From contig NZ_CP039734.2 in assembly GCF_011769985.2 (NCBI RefSeq), positions 1,364,001-1,428,000 on the forward strand: a stretch of DNA of 64,000 nucleotides, in the 5' to 3' direction. Every line of letters starts with the position of its first letter. Position 1 is the first letter of the stretch. The stretch comes from Sulfurospirillum diekertiae (GTDB taxonomy: Bacteria > Campylobacterota > Campylobacteria > Campylobacterales > Sulfurospirillaceae). Below the pieces are notes generated by a model. The model searched no databases. It was not told where the DNA came from and was given only the letters and a program-made list of their open reading frames with translations. The position numbers and the translations under genes were made by a program. Below are positions 56,495 through 63,649 of this stretch, piece after piece.

Positions 56495-57835
56495 TTATCC
56501 TAACCAAGGAGCTTCACGGTAAACGATTTTAAAGAGAGGATTTTTCAAGGTATTTTCAAGAATGTAAGCAAATTCTAAAATACCACGGTACCCCACATAA
56601 TTTTTTTCTTTTGCCTTCTCTATATTGAGAAAGGGGATTTTTGTTTGAACTGCGGCATAGACATTATCACTGTTTGTAATCAAAAGATCAATCTTCTCTT
56701 CTTCAATAATATCCATTTGCTCATTTTCTGGCTCATACATAAACATTCCTTTGCCAAGTAGAAGACGAATCGCTTGTTCTTTATCATCCTCTGTTATATT
56801 TTCAATAGACGTTGCGACCACATGCATATCTAGCTCTCGTAAAAGAGGAATATACGCCCACGATAGCGTTCCTTGAAGATTAATAAGAACTTTTTTTGCA
56901 TACAAGCTATCTTTGAAAAGCTCTAATTGCTCTGCCAATTTTTTTTCTTCAAAAGCAATGACCTTTTGTGTATTGCGACTCAATTTTCCATCATTAAAAA
57001 CTTCAGCAATCGTACGTAAAGCATCGGATGTGGCATATTTTCCAAAAAAAGAAACCTGAACCCAAGGAATGTCCCATATTTCTTCCATTTTTCGTGCCAT
57101 GGTTGCGAGTGGTTTGGCAGAAATTACAATATTGAGTTTGGCTTTATGTGCGGACAAGATAGGTTCAATAGAATTGCCCCTGCCAAAGGTAGCAAGAACC
57201 CGTAAACCTATACTCTCAATCAAATCACAATAAATTTTCATCTCTTCAGAACTGGCATCACAGCTGATTAAATTTACATCATACGCTGTTTCTTTTGCAA
57301 GCTCTTTAAGCCCTATAAGATGTTCGCAAAGTGTCATACTTGCAATGCGCGCCCCAAAATTACTCGCACCCAAAAAACCAGCGGCTAAGATGGGGACAAT
57401 AAGAATACCATGTTCTTGCTGCTTCTGTTGTGCAATGGCATCTACATCTTCACCAATGAGCGAAGTAACACACGTTATATAGATAAAAACAACTTTGGGT
57501 TGGCAAAGAGTGACAATGTGATCCAGTTGTAGCTTCAGTTTTGAAGCGCCACCAAAGATAATATCATTGAGGTCTAGGTTACTGCAAAAATAGTTTGAAT
57601 GTTGTGGTTGGGAAGATTTTTCAATGGATGTGGTTGTAAAGCACGTCGAAGATGAATAGATCAGATGCGCACAATCTTCATATGAACTTAAAAACTTAAA
57701 GGCTCCCTCTAAAGCACAATCACTAATCGATGATCCAGGATGAAGTCTTTCACAAATATTTTTTTTCTCTTTATCGCCGCTATGCGAACATGAAGACTCA
57801 TTATAAAGCTCCTTAATTGAAAAAAAACGTGACAT
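56495..57835 (-). CDS. Solitary NifE-like nitrogenase cofactor scaffold
   Basis: This 446-residue protein is of the nitrogenase component 1 family. The N-terminal third keeps the three cluster cysteines of a NifE/NifD-like subunit: ISDCALEG (about 37-44), SSTCFTT (about 62-68) and ITCVTSLIGEDVDAI (about 119-133). LNDIIFGGASKLKLQ (about 88-102) matches the DIVFGGEKKL region. The family assembles M-cluster-like cofactors on an E2N2 scaffold. No NifN partner is seen beside it. It lies 21 bases after the nifA-like gene (ribosome site AAAGGAAA), so it should be made together with the regulator. A role in FeFe-cofactor assembly is inferred; it could also serve Mo nitrogenase or an unknown substrate. 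Confidence 0.75.
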   Translation of the reverse strand: MSRFFSIKELYNESSCSHSGDKEKKNICERLHPGSSISDCALEGAFKFLSSYEDCAHLIYSSSTCFTTTSIEKSSQPQHSNYFCSNLDLNDIIFGGASKLKLQLDHIVTLCQPKVVFIYITCVTSLIGEDVDAIAQQKQQEHGILIVPILAAGFLGASNFGARIASMTLCEHLIGLKELAKETAYDVNLISCDASSEEMKIYCDLIESIGLRVLATFGRGNSIEPILSAHKAKLNIVISAKPLATMARKMEEIWDIPWVQVSFFGKYATSDALRTIAEVFNDGKLSRNTQKVIAFEEKKLAEQLELFKDSLYAKKVLINLQGTLSWAYIPLLRELDMHVVATSIENITEDDKEQAIRLLLGKGMFMYEPENEQMDIIEEEKIDLLITNSDNVYAAVQTKIPFLNIEKAKEKNYVGYRGILEFAYILENTLKNPLFKIVYREAPWLG

Positions 57836-57856
57836 CAGATTTCCTTTAATCGTTCA

Positions 57857-59395
57857 TTACTCCAGATATTCTTGCATGCAAATTTCATATTTTTGAATTT
57901 TATAGCCTATTTGGCGATTGGTTATGCCCAATTTCTTGGCTGCTTTTATTTTAATGCCTCTTGATTCTCGTAACACTCTTATAATGGCTTGTCGCTCCAA
58001 ATCTTCCAAATCTGCCTTAGTTTCAACTTCTTTAGTAGGAATTTTTGTCTTTGCTGGAAGTACGGAAAAAATTACTTGAGCGTTTACATGTAAAGAGGGA
58101 GCAAGAAGAACAATACGTTCCATACTGTTTTCCAACTCTCTAATATTACCAGGCCATGTGTACTCTTTGAGCATCATTTGGGCATCAGGCAACAAGGTAC
58201 GCTCTTTGCCATGACGTCTGCAAAAACGCTCCAAAAAATAGCATGCAAGCAAGATGATATCATCACCTCGATCACGCAAAGGAGGGGAGTGAATGGGAAT
58301 GACATTGAGCCTGTAGAAAAGGTCTTCTCTAAAGCTTCCTTGGCGTACCATCTCTTTAATATCACGATTTGTGGCCGCCACAATGCGCACGTCAACTTTA
58401 ATCGTCTTTGTTCCACCAAGTCTTTCAAACTCTTGCTCTTGCAGGACTCTCAGCAGTTTTGCTTGGAGACTTAGACTTAGATCGCCAACCTCATCCAAAA
58501 AAAGTGTTCCTTCATGTGCCAGTTCAAAACGACCTTTACGCATCTCTTTGGCATCCGTAAAGGCGCCTCGTTCATGCCCAAAAAGTTCTGTCTCCAAAAG
58601 ATTTTCAGGAATGGCAGCACAATTGAGTTTGATATAAGGCTTCTCTTTACGATGACTGTAATTATGAATGGCTTTTGCGATAAGCTCTTTGCCCGTTCCC
58701 GTCTCACCGCTGATAAAAATCGTTGAATTGGTACACGCTACTTTGCCAATAATCTCTAAAACATCTTGAATTACAGGACTGTAACCTATGATTTCGTTCT
58801 GCTTTAATATCTCCTCTTTGTAGTAGAGTTTTTCTTCTTTAAGACGCTTTTTTTCATCATTGATTGTTTGGTAGATTTGTTGTGATTGCGCCATGAGCGA
58901 AGCGGTAATGGTTAAGATTGTCACCATCTCTTCAATATTGCAAAGCGACTTTTGAGTTAAACTCACACCTAAAACACCAAAAAGTTTATTTTGAGAAAGG
59001 GCTGGTATGGCAAGATAAGAAATCTCACTCTTTTTTAAACTGCAGCTTTTATTGAGAAAGAGAATATTTTGATGGATATTTTCAATCACAACAGGCTCTA
59101 AAAATTGTGCACATAATCCCGTTGCACCTTCGCCCACTTTATAGGTAGCTAAGACTTCTTGCCGTTTACTTAGCCCTGCCGAACTTAACACTTCAAGTTC
59201 ATTACTTTCATCATTAAGCGCATAATAAATACTTTTATCCATATAAAAATGCCTCTTAAGAAGGCTGAGCGTCTTTTCAAATGCTATTTCTATGCCAAGT
59301 TCACTCCCTTTTAAAGCGAGTGCAATTTCATATAAAACTCTGAGCTCTTGATAGCGTGGGCAATCTTGGATAGGGCTGATGCAAATCGTATCCAC
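57857..59395 (-). CDS. NifA/AnfA-type sigma54-dependent activator
   Basis: This 512-residue activator has a GAF domain (about 20-165), a sigma54-interacting AAA+ domain (about 195-430) and a C-terminal Fis-type HTH (about 465-505). Walker A is GETGTGKE, the sigma54 contact loop is GAFTDA in ELFGHERGAFTDA, and Walker B is LFLDEVGD. Two N-terminal cysteines (C5, C12) recall AnfA/VnfA, whose N-terminal cysteines are thought to bind an Fe-S cluster. The inter-domain Cys-x4-Cys motif of oxygen-sensitive NifA proteins is not seen. It probably turns on the anf genes under Mo and N limitation. One palindrome copy is at 58084. The downstream NifE-like gene shares its transcript. Confidence 0.9.
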   Translation of the reverse strand: MDTICISPIQDCPRYQELRVLYEIALALKGSELGIEIAFEKTLSLLKRHFYMDKSIYYALNDESNELEVLSSAGLSKRQEVLATYKVGEGATGLCAQFLEPVVIENIHQNILFLNKSCSLKKSEISYLAIPALSQNKLFGVLGVSLTQKSLCNIEEMVTILTITASLMAQSQQIYQTINDEKKRLKEEKLYYKEEILKQNEIIGYSPVIQDVLEIIGKVACTNSTIFISGETGTGKELIAKAIHNYSHRKEKPYIKLNCAAIPENLLETELFGHERGAFTDAKEMRKGRFELAHEGTLFLDEVGDLSLSLQAKLLRVLQEQEFERLGGTKTIKVDVRIVAATNRDIKEMVRQGSFREDLFYRLNVIPIHSPPLRDRGDDIILLACYFLERFCRRHGKERTLLPDAQMMLKEYTWPGNIRELENSMERIVLLAPSLHVNAQVIFSVLPAKTKIPTKEVETKADLEDLERQAIIRVLRESRGIKIKAAKKLGITNRQIGYKIQKYEICMQEYLE

Positions 59396-59479: not shown

Positions 59480-60025
59480 TCATTCATTCAAAAATGCCTC
59501 TTTATTAAACAATTCACTCTCTTGCGCTATATTTTCTTTAGCGGTCAATGTTGTTGGTTCAATTTTAAAAACAGAAACAGCTTTTCCATCATGTGTGGAA
59601 CGATACTTTTCGATCAAACTTCCTGATAATTGATGTTTGTAGTAATTGGGTGTGTATTTGTCAAGTAATTTTTGAAGAACTAAGGCTGATTCTTCAGCGT
59701 CCATTACTTTTTCTGCCTTACCAAAAATGACAACACTACGGTATGCTGTATCTGCATGACACGGAACGGGGTCAACTACGGTACCGTATTCATGAAAAAG
59801 AGTAAAACAAACAGAAGGCCTTTGAAGTAATAGACTCTCTTTTTTTCCACTTCCCATACCATGAAAATAGATAGCCCCTTTATGCCAAACATAATTGACA
59901 GGTATGGCATAAGGAAAATTCTCTTCATCAACCATCGCCACAATGCCTACGCGTGTCTCTTGCAAAAAGGATTCAATCATCGCTTCATCGGTACAGATTC
60001 TCTTGTTATAACGAATTGTGTGCAT
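59480..60025 (-). CDS. PNPOx-fold flavin-binding protein (NimA-like) in the nitrogenase locus
   Basis: This is a 181-residue protein. MHTIRYNKRICTDEAMIESFLQE leads into a split-barrel domain with VGIVAMVDEENFPYAIPVNYVWHKGAIYFHG (about 29-59) and RSVVIFGKAEKV (about 99-110). These mark the pyridoxamine 5'-phosphate oxidase-related FMN or F420-binding family, to which NimA nitroreductases and some heme-degrading proteins belong. It lies downstream of anfK on the same strand, with the ribosome site GAGGAAAA. In other bacteria accessory genes follow anfK (anfO, anfR or anf1-3), but this protein is not obviously any of them. A redox-protective or regulatory role is only a guess. Confidence 0.8.
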   Translation of the reverse strand: MHTIRYNKRICTDEAMIESFLQETRVGIVAMVDEENFPYAIPVNYVWHKGAIYFHGMGSGKKESLLLQRPSVCFTLFHEYGTVVDPVPCHADTAYRSVVIFGKAEKVMDAEESALVLQKLLDKYTPNYYKHQLSGSLIEKYRSTHDGKAVSVFKIEPTTLTAKENIAQESELFNKEAFLNE

Positions 60026-60047
60026 ATTTTTTCCTCATTCATAATGA

Positions 60048-60083
60048 AGGGATTTTAGCTTTACATGTAAAGAAAAAATCCCT
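60048..60083. repeat. Stem with a TTTACATGTAAA copy in its loop, between anfK and the PNPOx-like gene
   Basis: AGGGATTTT (60048-60056) pairs with AAAATCCCT (60075-60083). The palindrome copy at 60061-60070 fills the loop and can itself fold. It starts 8 bases past the anfK stop, so it may attenuate expression of the downstream gene or protect the anf mRNA 3' end. Confidence 0.45.
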
Positions 60084-60091
60084 CTTTTTTT

Positions 60092-61489
<1,398 letters not shown>

Positions 61490-61499
61490 TTATCCTTTG

Positions 61500-61877
61500 T
61501 TAGTATCGAGCAACTGTCAGCTCTTTGTTGAGCGAACCGCTAATCGTGACGTAGTCAATACGTTCTTTAAGCTTTTCTATCAGCACCTTGATACTCTCTT
61601 TATCCATTTCCGCAAACCACGCAAAGCGCGCTCTAAAGGCTTCGGCTAAGGAGAGGGCATCGACCCAGTAGCAACGATCTTCGGGCGTCTCTTTTGCCAC
61701 TTCTTCATCACACAGAAGTTGCTTTGCTTTGCTTAAAACCCCTTCGTTTTGTCTCTCTCTATCCCAAGACCTAGAGTGAAACTGCCAAAGGCAATGTTTC
61801 ATAATATAATCTTCCATCTGAGCAATCCGAACGCTTTGTGTCGACTGCATTTGCATATTCACTTTTTCATCGCTCAT
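61500..61877 (-). CDS. anfG: Iron-only nitrogenase delta subunit
   Basis: This 125-residue delta subunit is found only in alternative (V or Fe-only) nitrogenases. Diagnostic stretches are CLWQFHSRSWDRERQNEG (about 29-46), DRCYWVDALSLAEAF (about 67-81) and the C-terminal ITISGSLNKELT pattern (seen as VTISGSLNKELTVARY). The delta subunit caps the alpha subunit and helps deliver cofactor. It lies between anfD (11 bases) and anfK (13 bases), the fixed order DGK. Ribosome site AAAGGAG. Confidence 0.95.
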   Translation of the reverse strand: MSDEKVNMQMQSTQSVRIAQMEDYIMKHCLWQFHSRSWDRERQNEGVLSKAKQLLCDEEVAKETPEDRCYWVDALSLAEAFRARFAWFAEMDKESIKVLIEKLKERIDYVTISGSLNKELTVARY

Positions 61878-61888
61878 TGTTTTCTCCT

Positions 61889-63649
<1,761 letters not shown>

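Follow-up and report, generated by a model that had tools for sequence, protein, structure and literature searches.

The Fe-only nitrogenase (anf) genes of Sulfurospirillum diekertiae and of the other anf-positive Sulfurospirillum searched are accompanied by a lone paralogue of NifE that is locked to them. This paralogue, hereafter the E-like protein, is established here as being under selection, with the ligands for receiving NifB-co and for the [4Fe-4S] cluster present and the conversion site absent. We have high confidence in this anatomy, that is, in the sites kept, the sites lost and the linkage to anf. In the open-licence literature, we found no description of a lone anf-linked NifE paralogue. 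The window analysed is a stretch of 64,000 nucleotides, and its features are collected in Table 1.

Table 1. Features of the anf cassette and ligand positions of the E-like protein, in window coordinates. Fractions refer to E-like proteins or, for the element upstream of anfD, to anf clusters.
Feature	Position	Strand	Remark
E-like gene, NifE paralogue of the anf cassette	56495..57835	-	446 aa
K407 at NifE Q419 position (second internal cofactor ligand)	56615..56617	-	Lys/Arg/Pro in 8/8; PMC13031127
S239 at NifE C250 position (internal cofactor ligand)	57119..57121	-	Ser/Asn/Gly in 8/8; PMC13128457
R163 = NifE R165, positive residue by the receiving site	57347..57349	-	8/8; PMC13128457
C122 = NifE C124, O-cluster ligand position	57470..57472	-	8/8; PMC13031127
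C65 = NifE C62, O-cluster ligand position	57641..57643	-	8/8; PMC13031127
C40 = NifE C37, O-cluster [4Fe-4S] ligand position	57716..57718	-	8/8; PMC13031127
C28 = NifE C25, NifB-co receiving ligand position	57752..57754	-	invariant 8/8; PMC13128457
C16 = A. vinelandii NifE C15, NifB-co receiving ligand position	57788..57790	-	invariant 8/8; PMC13128457
anfA, NifA/AnfA-type sigma-54 activator (GAF, AAA+, Fis HTH)	57857..59395	-	domain matches
PNPOx/Nim-type flavin-binding protein, distant Anf3 relative	59480..60025	-	PDB 6RK0, E 2.5e-6
anfK, Fe-only nitrogenase beta subunit	60092..61486	-	over cut-off
anfG, delta subunit	61500..61877	-	over cut-off
anfD, Fe-only nitrogenase alpha subunit	61889..63457	-	over cut-off; likely start ATG 63457
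GG-N10-GC sigma-54-like element upstream of anfD	63504..63517	-	aligned, conserved in 8/8 clusters

The open reading frame of the E-like gene is intact, with no interruption. Among curated HMM models, the best match of its product is TIGR01283 (nifE) with 314.3 bits, far below the equivalog cut-off of 505 bits, which makes the protein NifE-like yet divergent, as the original prediction had described it. The alignment to NifE is full length, and the only Pfam match, Oxidored_nitro, spans residues 40-430; the AnfO family (PF09582) was absent from the same scan. Kinship with CfbD, BchN or BchB was rejected, as the models for DPOR and Ni-sirohydrochlorin cyclase reached only 26-37 bits. In a maximum-likelihood tree (66 rows, LG+C20+F+G4, with the DPOR and CfbD families outside the tree), the eight E-like proteins formed one clade (100/100), which sat within the Campylobacterota NifE (100/100) and had a branch length of 1.41 changes per site. 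The profile models and the tree, proposed as checks with the original prediction, agree in this placement, and a descent from NifE rather than from NifD or AnfD is clear. The exact sister of the clade is uncertain due to the long branches. Among named relatives with the gene, S. diekertiae JPD-1 is the closest (92% identical); on plasmids only ordinary NifE were found, none above 37% identity.

A monomer model (pLDDT 82) was most similar to NifEN chains (Z 31.5-33.4), nearly tied with NifD chains (Z ~32), so that the structure adds nothing past the fold. The N-terminal part that contains C16 and C28 had a pLDDT below 50, and the receiving site was therefore judged from sequence alone.

Among 44 genomes of the family, the E-like gene was present in eight Sulfurospirillum, the same eight that had AnfD matches. 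A family profile scored the E-like class at 783 bits or more and NifE at 439 bits or less, and proteins of the E-like class were found only in anf-positive Sulfurospirillum among the sampled Campylobacterota. When 397 Campylobacterota were sampled evenly, AnfG turned up only in Sulfurospirillum and in one genome of another family (G157). The sampling of anf clusters covered the Campylobacterota, and one genome contig scan matched S. diekertiae alone. The tie between the E-like protein and anf that had been expected from a single sequence thus extends to all eight anf-positive Sulfurospirillum and to none without anf. The cassette has six genes on the minus strand, in the order anfD-G-K-PNPOx-anfA-E-like, and this order is identical in all eight clusters, one of which, on a contig of G023, stops just past the E-like gene. 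In nine anf-negative Sulfurospirillum, the cysE-like gene that precedes the cassette lies about 70 nt from aspC, which follows it, with neither an anf gene nor an E-like gene in between. Because the flanks abut in these relatives and the order never varies, the six-gene cassette is gained or lost as one block.

The E-like gene starts 16-21 nt past anfA or overlaps it, its place in the order being constant across clusters, and this spacing indicates that the cassette is very probably one operon. The link to an activator gene was correctly recognised in the original prediction: the E-like gene lies directly downstream of a NifA-type gene, in line with anfK, anfG and anfD. AnfD, AnfK and AnfG all exceeded the Anf equivalog cut-offs and did not reach those for Vnf. 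The sigma-54-like element before anfD is visible only through the alignment of the eight clusters; in a consensus scan of the whole window, sigma-54 matches were no more frequent than expected by chance.

In NifE, the first ligands of NifB-co are C15 and C25 at the N-terminus, K22 and R165 being close by, and an N-terminal deletion leaves the [4Fe-4S] cluster in place but removes the binding of NifB-co (PMC13128457). The ligands of this O-cluster are C37, C62 and C124, and those of the internal cavity, thought to be the conversion site, are C250 and Q419 (PMC13031127). The C250A exchange abolishes FeMo-co formation (PMC13128457). The A. vinelandii NifE sequence used here was taken from an alignment and begins with four placeholder residues. 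The original prediction had pointed to three retained cluster cysteines, which are C40, C65 and C122, and two more NifE cysteines, C16 and C28, can be added. The equivalent of K22 is also kept in all eight E-like proteins. In 51 NifE sequences, exactly six cysteines never vary; five of them are kept in all eight E-like proteins, and the sixth, C250, a position that is Cys in 51/51 NifE, is lost in all eight. The five ligand cysteines were thus kept 5/5, compared with 38/94 for other invariant positions (Fisher p=0.013), while in the pocket 10/11 NifE-invariant positions were lost, compared with 46/88 elsewhere (Fisher p=0.013); both tests were post hoc, the pattern having already been seen, and as modest values they give support rather than proof. 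The pocket positions are the equivalents of NifD V70, R96, Q191, Y229, C275, G356, G357, R359, G424 and the H442 region.

The E-like protein is not the only NifE in the cell. The source genome encodes seven Oxidored_nitro proteins, namely NifD, NifK, NifE, NifN, AnfD, AnfK and the E-like protein. The true nifE and nifN, two separate genes, lie side by side at C1:1039.0-1041.8 kb, 0.38 Mb from the E-like gene, with nifB, nifV and a nifX-like gene as neighbours. A NifEN fusion, suggested by a 933-aa open frame, was ruled out by an in-frame stop that divides nifE from nifN. In the cassette and in its 20 kb region there is no nifN, and the nearest beta-type subunit is AnfK. The earlier statement that the E-like gene has no partner gene nearby and stands without NifN therefore holds locally and fails genome-wide, as the search for a partner found NifN beside the true nifE and none near the E-like gene. 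The beta partners available to the lone protein are NifN, NifK and AnfK, and nothing points to a homodimer. A misplaced Mo-nif NifE was ruled out by the separate nifE-nifN pair and by the separation in the tree. The opposing case set out with the original prediction, clear orthology to a Mo-nif NifE with NifN elsewhere and no link to anf in relatives, does not describe what was found: NifN exists, orthology is not clear and the anf link holds in the relatives.

The search turned up no anfH, so that the anf system lacks a nitrogenase reductase gene of its own. A single NifH is present in each of seven anf-positive Sulfurospirillum, as it is in G157, and none was detected in the fragmentary genome G023 (loci: window 59480-63457 and G000:C1:1087031-1087882). 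An overlooked AnfH was ruled out, with only one NifH per genome, and the NifH of the Mo system must therefore serve AnfDGK too. A short gene lies between nifH and nifD both in Sulfurospirillum (L048:8046-8405, where it had no Pfam match) and in G157 (L063:6099-6542).

We tentatively propose, at slightly less than an even chance, that the E-like protein is an anf-dedicated NifE paralogue which receives NifB-co, is unable to convert it and feeds the Fe-only nitrogenase. The retention of C15/C25 and of the [4Fe-4S] ligands, the loss of C250 and the pocket, and the strict linkage to the cassette all point in this direction. So do the purifying selection on the gene and the lack of AnfO in the eight genomes, as the one further anf-positive relative, G157, has AnfO without an E-like protein. 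Together with a beta subunit, most likely NifN and possibly AnfK, the E-like protein would take NifB-co from NifB and deliver this [8Fe-9S-C] cluster unconverted to apo-AnfDK, in which homocitrate would be added after delivery. Such a delivery could secure the precursor of FeFe-cofactor in competition with NifEN, keep it off the Mo pathway and Mo out of the FeFe enzyme, and perhaps cover part of the job of AnfO. FeFe-cofactor requires NifB-co and homocitrate and no insertion of Mo (PMC11938142, PMC8406325), so that a hand-over of unconverted NifB-co would fit. In A. vinelandii, FeFe-cofactor reportedly arises without NifEN or VnfEN, and no further EN-like gene is present there (PMC8406325). 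A protein of this kind should therefore be dispensable in principle, which counts against the proposed role, as does a partly altered NifX-docking patch, in which K100 of NifE is replaced by S, E or D in 8/8 E-like proteins.

The dedicated anf scaffold or cofactor insertase of the original prediction survives in part. The anf link and the residues for a hand-over are there; the internal cofactor site is dismantled, which makes a full NifEN-style maturase unlikely. Whether the Fe-only nitrogenase of Sulfurospirillum has a dedicated assembly node for FeFe-cofactor, with its own precursor-delivery protein and contrary to the A. vinelandii rule, is a possibility that these sequences raise and that we lean slightly against. 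If true, the natural split between receiving and conversion site would allow the two-site picture that was published for NifEN in 2026 to be tested cleanly, and it would reveal how one pool of NifB-co is divided among several nitrogenases in a cell. It would also bear on the construction of Fe-only nitrogenase systems in foreign hosts, for which the delivery of precursor is important.

Compared with known systems, the E-like protein resembles NifE (TIGR01283) in fold, full-length alignment, N-terminal C-S-H...C NifB-co motif, three O-cluster cysteines and tree position. It differs in scoring below 505 bits, in the lost C250/Q419 site, in having no adjacent nifN, in its place within an anf cassette and in coexisting with a true NifE. 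An EN-type gene beside alternative nitrogenase genes is also known from VnfE/VnfEN and from Paenibacillus, in which anfHDGK is linked with nifBENX and so with both an E and an N gene (PMC3961195). Unlike in VnfEN and these pairs, the E-like gene stands alone, has lost the conversion site and is linked to anf rather than to vnfDGK. By analogy with the carriers NifX and NafY, it would hold NifB-co and pass it on unchanged, yet its fold and ligands differ from theirs (His35 in NifX). With AnfO, which serves the fidelity of Fe-only nitrogenase maturation, it shares the status of an accessory anf gene; the sequences are not homologous and the folds are unrelated, AnfO consisting of a NifX-like domain and a C-terminal domain (PMC11938142).

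AnfO nevertheless leads to another explanation of the same anatomy. In A. vinelandii, AnfO blocks the misincorporation of FeMo-cofactor (PMC11938142), and the E-like protein could replace it rather than feed AnfDK: by pairing with NifN or holding NifB-co, it would form an inactive maturase that suppresses FeMo-cofactor formation while the Fe-only system is active, and the wrong insertion of FeMo-cofactor into AnfDK would be prevented. We consider this unlikely, though it deserves some weight. AnfO is absent from all eight anf-positive Sulfurospirillum genomes, which rules out a copy hidden outside the cassette, whereas the relative from another family of the same order, G157, has anf and AnfO (152 bits) and no E-like gene. 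There, anfDGK-PNPOx-anfO adjoins nifH-x-nifDK (L063:7827-12606). This complementarity compares one clade with one genome and could be chance. A protein whose conversion site is gone, with receiving and [4Fe-4S] sites kept, also has the look of a dominant-negative NifE. However, AnfO works via another fold, with its NifX-like N-domain, and binds apo-FeFe protein. Moreover, binding of the E-like protein to NifN or AnfDK is hypothetical, and the anatomy is the same as that expected of a protein feeding AnfDK, so that the two roles look alike at the sequence level.

The position next to anfA, the one direct hint at the sensor role raised in the original prediction, could suggest a redox or metal sensor, in which a NifE derivative binding [4Fe-4S] or NifB-co acts on AnfA and ties anf transcription to cluster supply. 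The cluster cysteines are kept, as such a sensor would need, and the adjacency is constant, but it is equally explained by operon membership. The Pfam scan revealed no DNA-binding, kinase, PAS or GAF part in the E-like protein, and the receiving-site cysteines are hard to account for in a plain redox sensor; we regard this role as improbable. About equally improbable is a chaperone for the assembly of AnfDGK or its P-cluster, a placeholder alpha subunit that sits transiently on AnfK and is unrelated to the cofactor. AnfK is indeed the sole beta subunit in the cassette, and domain I and the [4Fe-4S] residues are among those kept. Yet this would not explain why C15/C25 at the N-terminus and K22/R165 are conserved, and a protein that descends from NifE rather than from AnfD would be expected to pair with NifN.

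An ordinary NifE duplicate drifting without a specific role would match the fast evolution of the E-like protein, with 43-51% identity between subclades compared with 86-97% for AnfD, and a frameshift in one genome. In G022 (L040), a poly-T run right after the start codon has nine instead of eight residues, shifting the E-like gene by +1; sequencing error, slippage and phase variation cannot be told apart as its cause. We nevertheless judge drift to be very improbable. The dN/dS of close pairs is 0.11-0.19 (AnfDGK: ~0.01-0.07), which indicates purifying selection on the E-like gene and rules out a degenerate pseudogene. Furthermore, the five ligand cysteines are invariant and the gene is present in 8/8 cassettes; under neutral decay, these cysteines would not have been spared. 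Least probable of all, and barely worth retaining, is a true scaffold that finishes FeFe-cofactor, including homocitrate addition, at an internal site with other ligands: the fold is that of holo-NifEN (Z 33) and a cavity may remain, but C250, Q419 and eight further pocket residues are lost and were replaced differently in each subclade (Ser/Asn/Gly and Lys/Arg/Pro at the two ligand positions), with no conserved substitute.

The comparison with G022 also revealed an uneven divergence along the cassette. The anfDGK and PNPOx genes are nucleotide-identical between the two genomes, while identity drops to 81-95% at the end of anfA and in the N-terminal half of the E-like gene; we read the divergence at 57100-58100 as a patch of local recombination affecting the E-like gene. 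Palindromic TGTAAA/TTTACA motifs occur at 60060-60080, before the PNPOx gene (CTTTACATGTAAAG), and at 63600-63640, upstream of anfD. They are partly conserved among relatives and may be candidate sites for AnfA or another regulator. The PNPOx/Nim-like gene (59480-60025) itself is kept in both anf layouts, that of Sulfurospirillum and that of G157. Its product is closer to BH0577 (2HTI, E 2e-46) than to Anf3 (6RK0, E 2.5e-6), and it is possibly an anaerobe counterpart of the latter.
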